Assembly: GCA_024643595.1 (NCBI GenBank)
Contig: JAHEMS010000002.1
Span: 1-40,899, forward strand
Direction of reading: 5' to 3'
Length of the DNA stretch: 40,899 nucleotides
Source of the DNA: Bacteroidota bacterium
GTDB taxonomy: Bacteria > Bacteroidota > Bacteroidia > Cytophagales > Cyclobacteriaceae
The notes under the pieces were generated by a model that was not told the origin of the DNA, did not search any database, and saw only the letters and a program-made list of their open reading frames with translations. Below are positions 33,198 through 40,704 of the stretch, piece by piece; the first letter of the stretch is position 1; every line of letters begins with the position of its first letter. Both the position numbers and the translations under genes were made by a program.

Positions 33198-34406
33198 ATG
33201 AAGTTTTCTTTTTTTTTAATGGCAATCGTAACGCTTTTGGTCACAATAAGCTGTGAACAATCGAAGTCTTCTTTAACCAAAGGCGCTTATGATTATGACG
33301 TTAACTTTCTGAAAAAACATTCCGAGAATTTAATTGAACTGAGCGATGAATCAGGCCAGGCAATGGTTCTGGTGTCCGCTGACTACCAAGGCCGTGTAAT
33401 GACCAGCACTGCTTCGGGTAACAAGGGAACCAGCTATGGATGGCTCAATTATGAATTGATTTCGTCCGGTAAAAAGAAACCACAATTCAATCCGGTAGGA
33501 GGTGAAGAACGATTTTGGTTGGGTCCTGAAGGTGGTCAATATTCTTTGTATTTCCATTCGGGAGATTCCTTTTCAATTCGCAACTGGCAGGTGCCTCCGA
33601 TAATTGATATCGAAGCGTTTGAAGTAGTAACAAGCAGTAAGTTGAGTGCCACTTTTTCAAAACAAGCATCCCTTACCAATTACAGTGGAACTATATTTGA
33701 TCTTCTTATCACAAGAAAGATTTCATTATTGGCAAAAACTGATCTTGAATCGAAACTTGGACTGAATATTTCGGAAGGAATTAAATATGTGGGTTATCAA
33801 ACGGAAAATCAAATCAAAAATGTGGGTTCGCTTGACTGGAAAAAGGAAAGTGGTTTGGTTTCCATCTGGTTACTTGGGATGTTTACACCATCGGATCAGG
33901 TAACGGTTATTATTCCTTTCAAGCCATTTGCGGGTGCGAAGGAGCTAATCACTACCTCCTATTTTGGTGAGATTCCTAAAGAGAGAATTAGCATTGATGA
34001 CAGCGTTTTATACTTTACCTGTGATGGAAAATATCGAAGTAAAATTGGCTTGTCCCCTGTTATAGCAAAACCCCTATCCGCAAGTTATGATTTCATCAAA
34101 CAGGTGCTCACCATCACACAATTTGAAATAATGCCCGACGCCTCTTACGTGAATTCAAAGTGGGAAATGCAACAGGAACCTTTCCTGGGCGATGCAGTAA
34201 ACTCCTATAATGACGGTCCGCTTGCTGATGGATCACAGCTTGGTCCATTCTATGAATTGGAATCCTCATCACCTGCATTGGAATTGAAAGTGGGAGAAAG
34301 TACCATGTATAGTCAAATGACTTGTCATTTGGAAGGTGATTTTGAAAAGCTTAATGCGTTAAGTAAGAATATTCTAGGTGTTGACTTAAGTACGATAAAA
34401 AAGTAA
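33198..34406 (+). CDS. DUF6786-like secreted lipoprotein
   Basis: In-frame ATG at 33198: MKFSFFLMAIVTLLVTISCEQSK (lipobox). Body includes ELSDESGQAMVLVSADYQGRVMTSTASG, GWLNYELI, GGEERFWLGPEGGQYSLYFHSG and EPFLGDAVNSYNDGPLADGSQLGPFYELESSSPALEL, which I recall as DUF6786. ORF open from 33018. Confidence 0.75.
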   Translation: MKFSFFLMAIVTLLVTISCEQSKSSLTKGAYDYDVNFLKKHSENLIELSDESGQAMVLVSADYQGRVMTSTASGNKGTSYGWLNYELISSGKKKPQFNPVGGEERFWLGPEGGQYSLYFHSGDSFSIRNWQVPPIIDIEAFEVVTSSKLSATFSKQASLTNYSGTIFDLLITRKISLLAKTDLESKLGLNISEGIKYVGYQTENQIKNVGSLDWKKESGLVSIWLLGMFTPSDQVTVIIPFKPFAGAKELITTSYFGEIPKERISIDDSVLYFTCDGKYRSKIGLSPVIAKPLSASYDFIKQVLTITQFEIMPDASYVNSKWEMQQEPFLGDAVNSYNDGPLADGSQLGPFYELESSSPALELKVGESTMYSQMTCHLEGDFEKLNALSKNILGVDLSTIKK

Positions 34407-34409
34407 ACT

Positions 34410-35252
34410 ATGCAATTATATAAAACTAAAGAAGGGGCCTTGTTGGTTGCTTCGAACCAGACATTCCTTCTTAACGAGAGTTGGGATTCAATTATTAACC
34501 GATCAAACCTCTATCATTATTTAATGGAACTCTCGCAAATTTCAGAACCTCTTCCATTTGATCGTAGTCAACAGTTATTAAGTAATGTGCTTGCGCCTAT
34601 AGGCAGTCAGGAGGTGTGGGCAGCCGGCGTAACCTACTTGCTTAGTCGCGATGCACGCATGGAGGAGTCAAAAGAATCGGGAGCATCAGATGTATATTTA
34701 AAAGTATACGAGGCTGACCGACCGGAATTATTTTTTAAAGCATTGCCTCACCGCGTAAGTGCACCAGGGGAAGAAGTTTATATACGAAAGGATTCTACCT
34801 GGAATGTACCGGAACCAGAACTCACGTTATTCATTAATTCTGAAGGAAACATTCAGGCTTACACGGTTGGCAACGACATGAGCTCGCGTAGCATTGAAGG
34901 AGAAAACCCATTGTACCTTCCACAGGCGAAAGTATATGAACGCAGCTGTGCTCTAGGCCCATGTTTGTTTGTGCCTGAAAATCCTATTTCATCAGAAACA
35001 GTAATAGCAATTGTCATCAAAAGAAATCATCAGGAAGTCTTTCAGGGTTCCATTCCTTTGAACCGCATGAAAAGAAGTCTTCCGGAATTATCTTCGTGGC
35101 TTTTTAAGGCATGCAGGTTTCAATATGGTAGTTTTTTGATGACAGGAACGGGCATCGTGCCCACCAATGAATTTACATTGGAGGCCAACGATGAAATTTC
35201 AATAACGATAGATGGCATCGGAACGCTGACGAATACGGTTCAACTCATTTAA
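34410..35252 (+). CDS. fumarylacetoacetate hydrolase (FAH)-fold protein, 2-keto-3-deoxy-arabinonate dehydratase-like
   Basis: VWAAGVTYLLSRDARMEES, LFFKALPHRVSAPGEEVYIRKDSTWNVPEPELTLFINSEGNIQAYTVGNDMSSRSIEGENPLYLPQAKVYERSCALGPC: FAH metal-site/substrate pattern, KdaD-like. Confidence 0.85.
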   Translation: MQLYKTKEGALLVASNQTFLLNESWDSIINRSNLYHYLMELSQISEPLPFDRSQQLLSNVLAPIGSQEVWAAGVTYLLSRDARMEESKESGASDVYLKVYEADRPELFFKALPHRVSAPGEEVYIRKDSTWNVPEPELTLFINSEGNIQAYTVGNDMSSRSIEGENPLYLPQAKVYERSCALGPCLFVPENPISSETVIAIVIKRNHQEVFQGSIPLNRMKRSLPELSSWLFKACRFQYGSFLMTGTGIVPTNEFTLEANDEISITIDGIGTLTNTVQLI

Positions 35253-35268
35253 TCATCAACGCGGCACT

Positions 35269-36177
35269 ATGGACAATAAAGAAACTGATGTACGCAGAAA
35301 TTTCTTAAAGAAACTGCTGGTTGCACCGGTTTTAATGACAACATCATTATCCGAAGCTGGAATTGAAAAGGATACTACTTCCCCTCTTAAACTCGGCCTT
35401 AACGCTTTTTCTTTTAACGATTTGCTGCTTGCGGGCCAGATGAGTTTAGATCAATTACTAACATTCTGTTATGATGAAGGAATTGGAGCGGTAGATATTA
35501 CAGCTTATTATTTTCAGGGATACCCTGCTGTTCCTTCAGATGAAATTCTATTTCAATTTAAGCGAAAAGCGTTTCAGTTAGGTGTGGACATCAGCGGTAC
35601 AGGTATTCGTAATGATTTTACTGAACCTGATATGACAAAAAGAAAAGAGCATATCGATTTGGTAAAAAACTGGATTGTGGCCGCATCGAAAATTGGCGCA
35701 CCAGTGATCCGAATTTTTGCCGGAAACAAAAATCCAAAAGGAACAGAGCGTGAACAAATGCGGAAGTGGATGTTGGCCTCTATTCAGGAGTGTGTAGAAT
35801 TTGGTGAAAAATATGGTGTAGTGGTCGCGCTACAGAACCATAATGATTTTATTCAAACAGCTGATCAAGCACTTGAGTTTATCAAAGACATTAATTCGAA
35901 CTGGTTTGGGTTGGTTCTAGACACCGGCAGTTATCGTGTGGGCGATCCCTATCAGGAGATTGCTAAAACGGCCATGCATGCAGTGAACTGGCAGATCAAA
36001 GAAAATGTATTTGTAAACGGTCAGGAGTTGGAAGCCGACATTAGCCGGATTATTAAAATAATTATTGAATCAGGATATAAGGGCTATATACCGATTGAGA
36101 CATTGGGGAAGGGAGACCCAAAATTGAAAGTAACAACACTATTAAATAAGGTAAAGTTAGCCATCGCTGATTCGTAA
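35269..36177 (+). CDS. xylose isomerase-like TIM barrel (sugar phosphate isomerase/epimerase family), Tat-like signal
   Basis: N-terminal RRNFLKKLLVAPVLMTTSL twin-arginine-like signal; LNAFSFNDLL, AVDITAYYFQGYP, GAPVIRIFAG, VVALQNHNDF, FGLVLDTGSYRVGDPYQEI, QIKENV, GYIPIETLGKGDP. Confidence 0.88.
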   Translation: MDNKETDVRRNFLKKLLVAPVLMTTSLSEAGIEKDTTSPLKLGLNAFSFNDLLLAGQMSLDQLLTFCYDEGIGAVDITAYYFQGYPAVPSDEILFQFKRKAFQLGVDISGTGIRNDFTEPDMTKRKEHIDLVKNWIVAASKIGAPVIRIFAGNKNPKGTEREQMRKWMLASIQECVEFGEKYGVVVALQNHNDFIQTADQALEFIKDINSNWFGLVLDTGSYRVGDPYQEIAKTAMHAVNWQIKENVFVNGQELEADISRIIKIIIESGYKGYIPIETLGKGDPKLKVTTLLNKVKLAIADS

Positions 36178-36202
36178 AGATATTTTTTATTCAGCGTAAA
36201 TA

Positions 36203-37564
36203 ATGATTATAAGATTACCATTGCTTCTGATATCATTGGGGTGTTCAATGATAATCCTCAACGGTTTCGGCCAAATTGATGCAGATGCAACAATCCAATC
36301 AAAAGCGCTATATAGAAATCTGAAGGTGGTTGCAGAAAGCAAGAACATTCTCTTCGGTCAGGAGTTTTTCAACAGTTTTCGCTATAGTGCAGGAAGTGCC
36401 CACGGTGATAAGGACTATTCAGATTCAAAAGCGGTAACAGGATCGCATCCGGCAGTATTGGGATCTGATTTTCATTATTATCTGGAGAAAACAGCAACAG
36501 AAAGATTGTACCATACGGAAGCTGTGAAATGGGCATTTCAGCAGGGCTATGTAATTACGTTTGATTGGCATCTTAGTGCCAGGGGAACATCTTCCTATCA
36601 ATTTGTTGGTTCGCCCCCCGACCTGGTAAACAATATTGTCAGTGACTTGAATGGCGATCGTGCCTGGTTTCTGGGTGAACTGGATAAGGTAATTGACATT
36701 ATCAATCATGATCTTAAGATTGGTAATGATACCATTCCCATTGTGTTCAGGCCATTTCATGAAATGAATGGAAATTGGTTTTGGTGGGGAAGCGCTGCCA
36801 CTTCGGCAACCACGTATCGTGCTCTATATGCGCTAACCGTAAATTATGTCAGGGACAGAACGAAAAGTGTTTTATTCTGCTGGTCTCCTAATATTCCGCT
36901 GGATTTAAATTATTATCCCGGCGATGAGTATGTGGATTTTGTTGGTTTGGATTATTATGAAGTTAATGCTGCTACACTGAGAACGCAATTGGGGGTATTG
37001 GTTGATTTTGCTGTCCAACATAACAAAGTAGCCGTTTTGTCGGAAACCGGAAACCGGGTGATTGGCGATAATGCCAGCACCTATTGGAATGATATCGTGC
37101 TGCCGGCTCTCTTAAACGATCCGTCAGAAAAAGCATGGAAGATTGGCTGGCTGTTAACATGGATTAATGCGAGCTGGGCTTTTCCATACGTACCACATGC
37201 ATTAAGTAGTCAGTCTGCTAAAAACAGTTTTATCAGCTTTATGCAGTCACCCAATATTATATTCGGAAATGAAATTTCAGCAATGTATAGTGAGGAACTT
37301 ATTACCTCGGTTGCACCGAAGGAGATACCCCATATTGAGGTTTATCCGATTCCTGCTTCTTCAGAACTCACTGTTGAAATATATGGCTTTAAGCGAGGGG
37401 CCTCTGTAATTTTTTATGATCAGACCAGAAGAGTAATGAATTCGATAACGGTTTCGGGCGAAGAAATCATTCACCCATCAGTATCTTTTTTTGCTCCTGG
37501 TATTTACTGGATACAGGTTTCTGATGGATTGAAGTCCATCGGAAGGAAATTCGTCGTGAATTAA
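36203..37564 (+). CDS. secreted glycoside hydrolase family 26 (beta-mannanase-like) with C-terminal T9SS type A sorting domain
   Basis: Signal peptide; acid/base motif PIVFRPFHEMNGNWFWWG; nucleophile context VAVLSETGNR; WSPN and PGDEYVDFVGLDYY; C-terminal IEVYPIPASSELTVEIYGFKRG...GIYWIQVSDGLKSIGRKFVVN, typical of a Por secretion tail. Confidence 0.93.
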   Translation: MIIRLPLLLISLGCSMIILNGFGQIDADATIQSKALYRNLKVVAESKNILFGQEFFNSFRYSAGSAHGDKDYSDSKAVTGSHPAVLGSDFHYYLEKTATERLYHTEAVKWAFQQGYVITFDWHLSARGTSSYQFVGSPPDLVNNIVSDLNGDRAWFLGELDKVIDIINHDLKIGNDTIPIVFRPFHEMNGNWFWWGSAATSATTYRALYALTVNYVRDRTKSVLFCWSPNIPLDLNYYPGDEYVDFVGLDYYEVNAATLRTQLGVLVDFAVQHNKVAVLSETGNRVIGDNASTYWNDIVLPALLNDPSEKAWKIGWLLTWINASWAFPYVPHALSSQSAKNSFISFMQSPNIIFGNEISAMYSEELITSVAPKEIPHIEVYPIPASSELTVEIYGFKRGASVIFYDQTRRVMNSITVSGEEIIHPSVSFFAPGIYWIQVSDGLKSIGRKFVVN

Positions 37565-37581
37565 AGTAGAAGAGGTTTTAC

Positions 37582-38439
37582 CTATTGTTTCAAACTTTTA
37601 AGATAATTGATGCTTTGAGGAATTTGCTTCATGTAAATACTGCTTTCGTCTTCAATGAAGTAGTGTTTTATTCCTGCTTTTTTGGCTTGCTTCAATATTG
37701 CCGGAATGTCAAGTTCACCTGTGCCGATAGCAACATCATTTTCGGGTGAAGTTAATCCGGTAAGGTCTTTGGGTGTGCCTTTTTTCAGGTCTTTCAGATG
37801 CATCAGCTTCCAGCGGTCTTTGTATTTCTTCAGTAATGCAACAGGGTCGCCACCGCCAAAGTATATCCACATGATGTCCATTTCAAATGATACATATTCG
37901 GGATTGGTATTTTGAATGATGTAATCCAGGAGTGTTCCTTTTTCATGCGGCCAGAATTCATAGCCGTGGGCGTGATAGCAAAAGGTAAGTCCATTTTCTT
38001 TCATCACTTTTCCTATCGTGTTAAAATCCTCCACTGCTTTTTTAGCATTCTCAAAGTTAAAGCTTCCTGTTTTGTGCGGTATCCAGGCGCACATCACATA
38101 TTTAGATCCCAGCGCTTTTGCACGGTCAGCAATCTCCTGTGGATTTTTTACTAATTGTTCATACCCTCCTCCAGTGCCAGGTATGCTGATGCCTCGTTCA
38201 TCACATAACTTCTTAAACTCTTCGGGTGCCATTCGGCCACCGCCTCCCTCCAGTTCTGTGAAGCCCAGCATCTTGATCGTATCTAATGTGGCAGCAATAC
38301 TTACTGGCCAGCTTTTCCGCAAGGTAAAGGAAGCTACTCCAAACGGGGCCTCATATAGCGGTTTGTTTTTCTGTGCCCAAGTTGGGGTGCCGGTACATAT
38401 AGTAATGAATAGCACAACCCAGGTAAAATTCTTTTTCAT
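37582..38439 (-). CDS. xylose isomerase-like TIM barrel (sugar phosphate isomerase/epimerase family), Sec signal peptide
   Basis: MKKNFTWVVLFITICTGTPTWAQ signal; FTELEGGGGRMAPEEFKKLCDERGISIPGTGGGYEQL, FCYHAHGYEFWPHEKGTLLDYIIQNTNPEYVSFEMDIMWIYFGGGDPVALLKKY, MHLKDLKKG, HYFIEDES. Confidence 0.9.
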   Translation of the reverse strand: MKKNFTWVVLFITICTGTPTWAQKNKPLYEAPFGVASFTLRKSWPVSIAATLDTIKMLGFTELEGGGGRMAPEEFKKLCDERGISIPGTGGGYEQLVKNPQEIADRAKALGSKYVMCAWIPHKTGSFNFENAKKAVEDFNTIGKVMKENGLTFCYHAHGYEFWPHEKGTLLDYIIQNTNPEYVSFEMDIMWIYFGGGDPVALLKKYKDRWKLMHLKDLKKGTPKDLTGLTSPENDVAIGTGELDIPAILKQAKKAGIKHYFIEDESSIYMKQIPQSINYLKSLKQ

Positions 38440-38450
38440 GATAGATATAA

Positions 38451-40154
38451 TTAGATGTTCCTTTTTTTCAATTCATCAACGGCATAGTTGGCAGCACGCG
38501 CAGTAATAGCCATGAATGTTAATGTAGGATTTTGAGTTCCGGTGGAAGTCATGCAAGCGCCATCTGTAACAAAAACATTTTTGCAAAGATGCAGTTGATT
38601 CCAGTTGTTGAGCAATGATGTTTTAGGATCGTTACCCATGCGCACACCACCCATTTCATGGATATCGGAACCAGGAGGGGATTTAGTGTCCTCCGCAGTA
38701 ATGTTAATGAAGCCTGCCTTTTCAAACATTTCTTTGGATTGTTCGATATAATCGTTGACCATCTTATCATCATTTTCAGACCAATCACAGGAAATGATTA
38801 GCTGAGGAATTCCGTACTTGTCTTTTAACTCCGGATGAAGACGCACATGGTTTTTTTCCAGCGGAACCGTTTCGCCCATCATCCAGCTGCTGATGTTCCA
38901 GTTACCAAGAGTGGGATTCAAAATATTTTCCCTTAATTGATCGCCAATCACAGAGGTATCGGTACGCATTCCCCTGCCTCCACCAATGCCAATTGCGTAA
39001 CCCCTTAAAAAGTCAGCATCTTGCTGTCGCACATTTCTGAATCGTGGAATATAACTATGACTTGGATTGCGGCCGCTCGTTTTTTTATCCTTAAATCCTT
39101 CAAATTGAGCGTTGGCTTTTCCGCGATAATTATGCCACGCAACAAACTTTCCTAGCAAACCACTGTCATTACCAAGTCCACCAGGGAATCGTGACGATGT
39201 TGAATTCAGTAAGATTGCATTGGAGTTGATCGCGGAAGCATTGACAAAAATGATCTTCGCGTTGTATTCTATCATTTCTTTTGTTACACCATCAATAACA
39301 CGAACACCTGTAGCTTTCTTTTTTCTTTCATTATAGATGATAGAATGAACTACGGAAAAGGGCCGGACGGTTAAGTTGCCGGTTTTCAATGCCCACGGCA
39401 GTGTGGATGAATTGCTGCTGAAGTATCCACCAAACTGACAACCCCGGTTGCACAAGTTTTGATTCAGGCATTTGTTTCTTCCCTGCTGCTTTTGAATCGG
39501 CTCAATGCTGGTGATGTGCGCACAACGGCCCTGGATGAGATGACGATCAGGAAAATATTTACCTAAGCTATCTTTAAAATATTCTTCAATACAACTCATT
39601 TCAAAACCAGGCTGGCATTCGCTGTCCGGCAGTTCAGGTAAACCGTCTTTGTTTCCTGCTATACCTGCAAACTTTTCAACATGGGTATACCAGGCTTCAA
39701 GATCTTTGTAGCGTATCGGCCAGTCTACCGCAAATCCATCCCTGGCTGGTCCTTCAAAATCGTAATCACTCCATCGTTGCGTTTGTCTTGCCCACAACAA
39801 CGACTTGCCTCCCATATGGTATCCACGAAACCAACGAAATGGTTTTTCTTGAATAAAGGGCTGCTCATCATCGCGTATTACCCAGTGAAAGGTCTCTTCT
39901 CTCGCGAAGCGAGATGATTTAAAATCAATTCGTTTTTCAAGAGGCACCGTGCCCCGAAATTCAAATTGCCATGGTGCTTTACCTGCCGTTGGGTAATCGA
40001 CAATGTGCTTTACATCGCGGCCCCGCTCCAATACAAGCGTTTTTAATCCGCGATCACATAATTCCTTAGCGGCCCATCCACCACTGGCACCTGAGCCAAT
40101 AACGATGGCATCGTAAGTCCTTTTTTTTGCGGAATCAATAGCGAGGTTACTCAT
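38451..40154 (-). CDS. GMC family FAD-dependent oxidoreductase (sugar/gluconate dehydrogenase large subunit-like)
   Basis: FAD Rossmann motif YDAIVIGSGASGGWAAKELCDRGLKTLVLERG; RGYHMGGKSLLWARQTQRW; C-terminal GMC (HEMGGVRMGNDPKTSLLN...VTDGACMTSTGTQNPTLTFMAITARAANYAVDEL). Confidence 0.95.
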   Translation of the reverse strand: MSNLAIDSAKKRTYDAIVIGSGASGGWAAKELCDRGLKTLVLERGRDVKHIVDYPTAGKAPWQFEFRGTVPLEKRIDFKSSRFAREETFHWVIRDDEQPFIQEKPFRWFRGYHMGGKSLLWARQTQRWSDYDFEGPARDGFAVDWPIRYKDLEAWYTHVEKFAGIAGNKDGLPELPDSECQPGFEMSCIEEYFKDSLGKYFPDRHLIQGRCAHITSIEPIQKQQGRNKCLNQNLCNRGCQFGGYFSSNSSTLPWALKTGNLTVRPFSVVHSIIYNERKKKATGVRVIDGVTKEMIEYNAKIIFVNASAINSNAILLNSTSSRFPGGLGNDSGLLGKFVAWHNYRGKANAQFEGFKDKKTSGRNPSHSYIPRFRNVRQQDADFLRGYAIGIGGGRGMRTDTSVIGDQLRENILNPTLGNWNISSWMMGETVPLEKNHVRLHPELKDKYGIPQLIISCDWSENDDKMVNDYIEQSKEMFEKAGFINITAEDTKSPPGSDIHEMGGVRMGNDPKTSLLNNWNQLHLCKNVFVTDGACMTSTGTQNPTLTFMAITARAANYAVDELKKRNI

Positions 40155-40173
40155 GGGTTATATTTTTCTGGGG

Positions 40174-40704
40174 TTAAATTTCAACGCAGCCTTTGTAATG
40201 CCCTGGGATTACTTTGTATTTTAGATGATCTCCCATTACTTCTTTGGAGGTGCTATATCCCCGAATGGTTTCTGATTTTATAAGTTTTAAGAAGTCCTTT
40301 TTATCCGGTTCATCTTCTGCCATTTTCAAAAGAAGTGCTTGACGCTGCAAGATATCCGCGGAAGAATACGATTTGCCGTACTCAGACAAGGCCTGGTTTT
40401 CCAGGTTGTTCAATTGTCTTTTCACGTTTTCCTGAGTAGCCACCTCATAACACTGCGCAAATAATTTTTCCAGGAACTTGTCAACACCCACAGTAAGTGC
40501 TCCAATGGAGTCACCAGCAGGTATGATCGCGTCTACGACTGCAGCAAGGATTTCTTGCTCAGACGAACTAAAAACGGATGCGTTATAGTTCAGCGTTTCA
40601 ATCCGCCAGCCATTCGCCCAGGCTGGTAATGAAATTAACCCTGCAGACAGGGTTGCGAGGTGCTTTATCGATTTTCTTCTGTTCACAGATAAGTTGATTT
40701 TCAA
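40174..40704 (-). CDS. gluconate 2-dehydrogenase subunit 3 family protein, Tat-like signal
   Basis: NRRKSIKHLATLSAGLISLPAWANG twin-arginine-like signal; FSSSEQEILAAVVDAIIPAGDSIGALTVGVDKFLEKLFAQCY typical of GluDH subunit 3; directly upstream of the GMC subunit. Confidence 0.92.
   Translation of the reverse strand: MKINLSVNRRKSIKHLATLSAGLISLPAWANGWRIETLNYNASVFSSSEQEILAAVVDAIIPAGDSIGALTVGVDKFLEKLFAQCYEVATQENVKRQLNNLENQALSEYGKSYSSADILQRQALLLKMAEDEPDKKDFLKLIKSETIRGYSTSKEVMGDHLKYKVIPGHYKGCVEI

Follow-up and report, generated by a model that had tools for sequence, protein, structure and literature searches.

L-Fucose is the 5-methyl homologue of D-arabinose, a sugar seldom found except in mycobacterial-type walls and certain bacterial glycans. 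In the nonphosphorylative Route II of D-arabinose oxidation, described with Sulfolobus KdaD and for Herbaspirillum and Paraburkholderia, an aldose dehydrogenase, a D-arabinonate dehydratase (in bacteria a UxaA/GarD protein), an FAH-fold KdaD-type dehydratase and a semialdehyde dehydrogenase work together, and L-fucose dehydrogenases are also active on D-arabinose (PMC6336799). D-arabinan clusters combine GH183 with GH172 and GH116, the exo-alpha- and exo-beta-D-arabinofuranosidases of which have been described (PMC10509167, PMC10115798), and a metabolism by isomerase and kinase has been proposed for D-arabinan utilization (PMC10509167). Separately, GMC/GluDH3 dehydrogenases of the LacABC type make 3-ketoglycosides for cleavage in Bacteroidetes and Caulobacter (PMC9007349). 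Here, we analyzed a 40,899-nucleotide stretch (the window) from a member of the Cyclobacteriaceae, in which the gene for a DUF6786 lipoprotein is followed directly by one for a KdaD-like FAH protein. The window makes up contig C115 in full; the metagenome-assembled genome (MAG) from which it comes has 3.76 Mb in 559 contigs and is 78% complete.

The interval at 33198-40704 is a mosaic of two convergent units and not one mannan pathway. The conserved core of its plus-strand unit is the DUF6786-FAH pair, and we consider it likely that both genes are parts of a system for D-arabinose and/or L-fucose. The genes of the interval are as follows.

33198..34406, plus strand: DUF6786 lipoprotein with a predicted galactose-mutarotase-like fold (PF20583, E 7e-159), the conserved partner of the KdaD-like gene
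34410..35252, plus strand: FAH, KdaD-like, no export signal, presumably cytoplasmic (PF01557, E 7e-18; PDB 2q18, E 9e-50)
35269..36177, plus strand: TIM1, xylose-isomerase-like TIM barrel with a Tat-type signal (PF01261, E 2e-26)
36203..37564, plus strand: GH26 glycosidase with a type IX secretion system (T9SS) sorting tail (PF02156, E 5e-35; TIGR04183)
37582..38439, minus strand: TIM2, Sec-exported TIM barrel (family profile, E 8.5e-17; PDB 8tct, E 4e-24)
38451..40154, minus strand: GMC FAD dehydrogenase catalytic subunit (profile, E 4e-18; PDB 7w2j, E 3.5e-29)
40174..40704, minus strand: GluDH3 small subunit (PF13618, E 2e-26; RR motif)

Neighborhoods of the DUF6786-FAH pair

We collected 80 DUF6786 loci with flanks of up to 10 kb from named genomes and clustered all of their genes. 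The commonest partner was the same FAH, which was present in 29 of the loci, nearly always immediately downstream and on the same strand. Other partners were DUF2961/GH172, a major facilitator superfamily (MFS) transporter, GH116, sulfatases, LacI, a GarD-type dehydratase, a short-chain dehydrogenase/reductase (SDR), an aldehyde dehydrogenase (ALDH), FucI and GH29. Representatives of the SDR, MFS and isomerase clusters scored above the NCBIfam cutoffs for L-fucose dehydrogenase (FucDH), FucP and L-fucose isomerase (FucI), respectively. The best match of the GH172 representative was the exo-alpha-D-arabinofuranosidase 8ic8 (E 1.5e-128) and that of the GH116 representative the exo-beta-D-arabinofuranosidase 8ic6 (E 4e-128, versus 1e-16 for beta-glucosidases). 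In Chitinophaga, the gene order is LacI-GH172-ALDH-FucDH-GarD-DUF6786-KdaD-FucP; elsewhere, oxidative genes cluster with FAH in relatives (L180, L178, L175), and ALDH-DUF6786-KdaD stand together in L233.

Flanks of 5 kb or more on each side were available for 51 loci, of which 40 carried at least one D-arabinose/L-fucose marker (GH172, GH116, L-fucose/D-arabinose dehydrogenase, UxaA/GarD-type dehydratase, FucP or FucI). Binomial estimates against the copy numbers in the window genome, which are rough and for which the GH116 copy number was assumed rather than measured, were below 1e-12 for each marker. Across 59 relatives, DUF6786 co-occurred with FAH (8/9; P 8e-5), FucDH (9/9; P 2e-5) and GH172 (5/9; P 0.002). 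One genome (G034) has the same QueG-DUF6786-FAH order as the window, but synteny stops right after FAH, where other genes follow, and TIM1, GH26 and the minus-strand unit are therefore insertions or rearrangements relative to that genome.

A preliminary description of this DNA had joined all seven genes in one extracytoplasmic mannan pathway, in which GH26 would depolymerize, GMC/GluDH3 oxidize and the two TIM barrels cleave, with FAH taking the keto-deoxy acid. Every part is present and intact, TIM1 and GH26 are probably cotranscribed with the pair (gaps of 16 and 25 bp), and one unrelated MAG (L077) carries TIM-GMC-GluDH3-TIM-DUF6786 consecutively. However, the full set recurs nowhere else, and this lack of recurrence led us to reject the pathway as a unit; conserved co-occurrence, on which the preliminary description had itself let the proposal depend, was absent for the full set. 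The neighborhoods of the 80 loci held 0 GH26, 0 GluDH3, 1 GMC, 3 TIM2 and 0 TIM1 relatives, and given about a dozen GMC copies in the genome, the GMC and TIM2 cases were not counted as an enrichment. GH26 showed no co-occurrence with DUF6786 beyond chance among the 59 relatives (P 0.49), and its orthologues elsewhere lie in SusCD loci without these genes. The two units are convergent, and the neighbors of DUF6786-FAH in relatives are D-arabinose/L-fucose genes, not mannan genes. We regard a single mannan pathway as highly improbable; correcting it matters, as it would have steered experiments to the wrong substrate.

The KdaD-like FAH and the proposed route in the window genome

The match of FAH to PDB 2q18 (E 9e-50) covers residues 60-277. 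Residues E106, E135, E137, D156 and K174 are the counterparts of E114, E143, E145, D164 and K182 in 2q18, and all five are invariant in a 12-sequence alignment with homologues 55-80% identical to the window protein. We take these residues to have the catalytic roles assigned in the published KdaD structure. FAH is thus probably a cytoplasmic 2-keto-3-deoxy-D-arabinonate (or L-fuconate) dehydratase, judging from its sequence, and its earlier designation as KdaD-like holds. Where FAH does not adjoin DUF6786 in relatives (L169:5770-8843; L170-L173), a gene of ∼730 codons accompanies the KdaD-like FAH; in L169 its product, seemingly an alternative partner of FAH, is a DUF5916/CBM9-like exported protein.

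Homologues of all four Route II genes are present in the window's own genome: the dehydrogenase on C432, the GarD-type dehydratase on C542 (58% identical to DUF6786-linked ones), KdaD in the window, and an aldehyde dehydrogenase whose gene is divided between C424 and C449, at their ends, and has hydroxyproline-pathway-like genes as neighbors. A GH172 on C170 is 79% identical to the cluster from the DUF6786 loci, and another GH172 adjoins a FucP-like gene on C150. In relatives (L180, L178, L233 and Chitinophaga), the Route II genes are clustered. As in the described route, the aldose dehydrogenase, UxaA/GarD-type dehydratase, FAH-fold dehydratase and semialdehyde dehydrogenase thus occur together in relatives of the module; unlike in that route, FAH has an exported DUF6786 lipoprotein as its partner, relatives add GH172/GH116 and FucP, and the steps are scattered in the window genome.

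From families, residues, neighborhoods, co-occurrence and predicted fold, we infer activities, substrate, localization and the mutarotase role of DUF6786 as follows. Secreted GH172/GH116-type enzymes would release D-arabinofuranose, and the DUF6786 lipoprotein would equilibrate the ring and anomeric forms of the freed sugar outside the cytoplasm before import by FucP. L-Fucose/D-arabinose dehydrogenase and the UxaA/GarD-type dehydratase would then yield 2-keto-3-deoxy-D-arabinonate, which FAH would convert to alpha-ketoglutarate semialdehyde and an aldehyde dehydrogenase to alpha-ketoglutarate (Route II), with the remaining genes placed elsewhere in the same genome.

The same markers could belong to a module for L-fucose instead, with dehydrogenase, FucP, FucI, GH29 and sulfatases serving fucose or fucoidan use and FAH acting on 2-keto-3-deoxy-L-fuconate. 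In several marine and Bacteroidales loci, DUF6786 indeed adjoins GH29, sulfatases, FucI and RhaM, and the known dehydrogenase accepts both sugars (PMC6336799). However, an L-fucose cluster distinct from the DUF6786-FAH pair already exists on C432 of the window genome (L136:10004-14956); it holds L-fucose dehydrogenase, FucP and RhaM together with a fuconolactonase-like gene, a canonical FAH and a second SDR, and apparently is a complete nonphosphorylative cluster. In addition, the nearest characterized FAH is the D-arabinonate enzyme, the GH172/GH116 neighbors best match D-arabinofuranosidases, and a semialdehyde dehydrogenase is required for the pentose only. We therefore find an exclusive L-fucose module unlikely and favor D-arabinose, with or without L-fucose, as the substrate of the pair.

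Predicted fold and role of the DUF6786 protein

The AlphaFold model of the DUF6786 protein (pLDDT, the per-residue confidence score, 94) had as its best Foldseek match the aldose 1-epimerase 3nre (E 2e-11; TM score 0.65 by target length), and its closest fold matches were single-domain aldose 1-epimerases, which places the model in the supersandwich fold. A lipobox-like motif was present in 67 of the 88 members of the DUF6786 cluster. Invariant residues of the protein are E104, E112, D277, D333, D340, E354, E356 and H378. KdaD occurs in 29 and FucI in 9 of the DUF6786 loci, and no locus has both. Given this mutual exclusion, the most likely place of DUF6786 action is upstream of either enzyme, on the sugar outside the cytoplasm, and thus probably before the oxidative (KdaD) and isomerase (FucI) routes split.

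Our best guess from the model is an extracytoplasmic D-arabinose/L-fucose mutarotase. That it would equilibrate furanose from GH172/GH116, or fucose from GH29, before uptake by FucP is possible, and we put this forward tentatively. It is doubtful, though conceivable, that the protein is instead a glycoside-cleaving enzyme or a carbohydrate-binding lipoprotein on a supersandwich scaffold, for example a D-arabinofuranoside-active stand-in for GH183. The same fold is part of glycoside phosphorylases and GH116, DUF6786 exceeds the best-matching aldose epimerase in length by ∼110 residues, and no GH183 endo-D-arabinanase turned up in 15 of 25 DUF6786 genomes, the window's included. On the other hand, the top fold matches are single-domain aldose epimerases, and fucose loci that lack D-arabinofuranosidases also contain DUF6786, a better fit to action on a free sugar than on a single linkage.

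Compared with the described D-arabinan clusters (PMC10115798, PMC10509167), the same exo-alpha- and exo-beta-D-arabinofuranosidase families adjoin DUF6786, but GH183 is mostly missing. As no GH183 was found in the window genome or in 14 more of the 25, it was dropped as the depolymerase partner of DUF6786, and we do not claim whole D-arabinan degradation. The literature library that we searched yielded no paper on DUF6786, and PMC10115798 does not mention it. Outside its own group, the window protein is nearest to Ferruginibacter proteins (60-63%), ahead of Chryseolinea (55%), even though the family of Chryseolinea seems to be that of the genome; horizontal transfer of the gene is possible.

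Several observations weigh against a D-arabinose/L-fucose system with DUF6786 as mutarotase. A PDB profile search with DUF6786 gave no match, and hhalign against YphB gave a probability of 1.6%, so that kinship to mutarotases was not seen at the sequence level. In a broader, less selected draw from the window's family, a marker was present in only 15 of 35 loci, and KdaD in one, so that DUF6786 must also occur in other settings. Because the 80 loci were top matches and related to each other, the P values given above are overstated. In the window genome, the pathway genes do not share a contig, the MAG being 78% complete, and the aldehyde dehydrogenase is in a hydroxyproline-type cluster. Finally, all five genomes with TIM1 also have DUF6786 (5/5; P 2.5e-5), and as TIM1 is in the same probable transcript, it may not be a mere passenger.

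Layout of the interval

All seven genes were present as placed, and profile matches confirmed the families that the preliminary description had given them. In the plus-strand unit, DUF6786, FAH, TIM1 and GH26 follow each other with gaps of 3, 16 and 25 bp; in the minus-strand unit, GluDH3, GMC and TIM2 follow with gaps of 19 and 11 bp; and the stops of the two units are 17 bp apart. The genes are thus consecutive, as had been described, but form two convergent units rather than one operon, a point not stressed before. By inspection, five of the seven products carry export signals, as had also been stated, and FAH and GMC have none: a lipobox (VTISC) at the N terminus of DUF6786, twin-arginine translocation (Tat)-like motifs in TIM1 (RRNFLKK) and GluDH3 (RRKSIKH), and Sec signals in GH26 and TIM2. 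The catalytic motifs of GH26 (E187/E281) and GMC (H499/N542 with Cys229/235/239) are apparently intact. A scan for promoters and terminators gave a signal near shuffled expectation. The window has no SusC-sized open reading frame (ORF), the largest being 640 aa, which agrees with the earlier remark that no SusC/D was visible; the hallmark of a mannan polysaccharide utilization locus, a SusC/SusD pair that accompanies GH26 and further enzymes for mannan, was accordingly not found in the window.

TIM1 and GH26

Close orthologues of TIM1 were present in only 4 of 58 relatives, all with DUF6786; in a further genome (G086, locus L233), TIM1 lies near ALDH-DUF6786-KdaD. We regard TIM1 as a downstream passenger, weakly linked to DUF6786 genomes. 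By eye, TIM1 has Gln/Lys (WQIKEN) at the place of the beta-7 metal histidine of AtOGE, which makes a lyase role doubtful, and it may not bind metal as the 3-keto-glycoside lyases do. One TIM1 orthologue (L165) adjoins a TIM2 homologue and a DUF1080 3-keto-disaccharide hydrolase. A PD40 beta-propeller protein of ∼500 aa recurs near TIM1 orthologues and DUF6786-FucI loci (L165:5805-7460, L168:9654-11162, L058:12261-13754), and a similar N terminus was seen in L233 and L077.

GH26 appears as a downstream passenger in the plus-strand unit. Three genomes (G008, G018, G009) carry its orthologues (51-54%) at SusCD-type loci, together with GH5 and GH30-like genes; of these loci, the one in G008 was run against Pfam. 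Its T9SS tail scored 23.4 versus 23 bits, just above the NCBIfam cutoff (TIGR04183), and 21.5 versus 27 bits, below that of Pfam.

The GluDH3-GMC-TIM2 unit

The minus-strand unit appears separate from the plus-strand unit and combines a putatively Tat-exported sugar dehydrogenase of the FAD/3Fe-4S type with a TIM barrel of the lyase/hydratase type. Over its full length, GMC aligns with the fructose dehydrogenase (FDH) large subunit 7w2j (E 3.5e-29); Cys229/235/239 align with its Cys cluster, and the His/Asn pair (H499/N542) is kept, residues shared with direct-electron-transfer FAD sugar dehydrogenases (FDH/BcGDH/LacA). In a glucose dehydrogenase related to GMC, a 3Fe-4S cluster is bound by these cysteines, and the small (gamma) subunit is a Tat hitchhiker (PMC6719666). 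By analogy, GluDH3 is probably the Tat hitchhiker for the GMC subunit. The structures nearest to TIM2 were 8tct (E 4e-24), 8tcs and 8tcd, with AtOGE 8bvk also matching (E 5e-11), and its His/Asp/His/Glu motifs are present. We take 8tct, 8tcs and 8tcd to be enzymes of 3-keto-glycoside chemistry.

An oxidase and a homologous lyase/hydratase TIM barrel thus share one unit, as in pathways of 3-keto-glycoside oxidation and elimination, and the unit resembles a known kind, with a candidate FAD/3Fe-4S dehydrogenase, a Tat hitchhiker and a 3-keto-glycoside lyase-like barrel. The 3-keto-glycoside idea of the preliminary description therefore suits this type of unit, although not the joining of all seven genes. 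Like the LacABC/FDH/BcGDH-type complexes (PMC6719666, PMC9007349), the unit has a GMC with three Fe-S cysteines and the His/Asn pair and a GluDH3 with an RR motif; unlike them, it shows no cytochrome subunit up to the contig end (at 40899, ∼195 bp past GluDH3), lacks the inter-subunit disulfide cysteine and adds TIM2. With the pathway of 3-keto-glycoside beta-elimination/hydration (AtOGE, PMC10628242; a B. theta lyase, PMC13273386, and Nasseri 2024, cited in the latter), it shares an exported oxidase and a xylose-isomerase-like TIM barrel with metal-site motifs, but no Gfo/Idh reductase or DUF1080 hydrolase lies beside it.

The unit might instead oxidize a free aldose or polyol, with TIM2 as an ordinary sugar epimerase, as among solved structures those of fructose and glucose dehydrogenases come closest to GMC, and the genome has about a dozen GMC paralogues. 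We think this unlikely: besides its closest matches 8tct, 8tcs and 8tcd, TIM2 has a match in the 3-keto-O-glycoside eliminase AtOGE (8bvk), and LacABC-type GMC dehydrogenases yield 3-ketoglycosides (PMC9007349).

The GMC paralogues, about a dozen in 3.8 Mb, lie in the window and on C542, C16, C349, C33, C92, C538, C321, C226, C86 and C362. By inspection, two adjoin SMP-30/gluconolactonase-like genes, and on C86, GMC, GluDH3 and a TIM2 homologue occur again within 5 kb. In the Bacteroidetes MAG casp40-mb.97 (L077:5529-11182), a Tat-type TIM barrel, GMC, a GluDH3-like protein (by inspection), a second Tat-type barrel and DUF6786 are encoded consecutively on one strand; this array, seen once in 80 loci, is the closest to the combination first proposed for the window.

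Implications

Taken together, what is new here is that DUF6786 gains a D-arabinose/L-fucose setting and a predicted fold; a pathway for mannan oxidation is not part of it. DUF6786 could quite possibly be a new family of extracytoplasmic lipoproteins that acts on free D-arabinose/L-fucose (as a mutarotase) or on D-arabinofuranosides, and that marks a widespread, undescribed Bacteroidota system of GH172/GH116 D-arabinofuranosidases, FucP uptake and Route II. The neighborhoods give DUF6786 its first functional setting, with a substrate context and a testable role. As a marker family with a named enzyme for each step, it would aid in finding Bacteroidota that degrade D-arabinan or D-arabinofuranosides and route the sugar to central metabolism.

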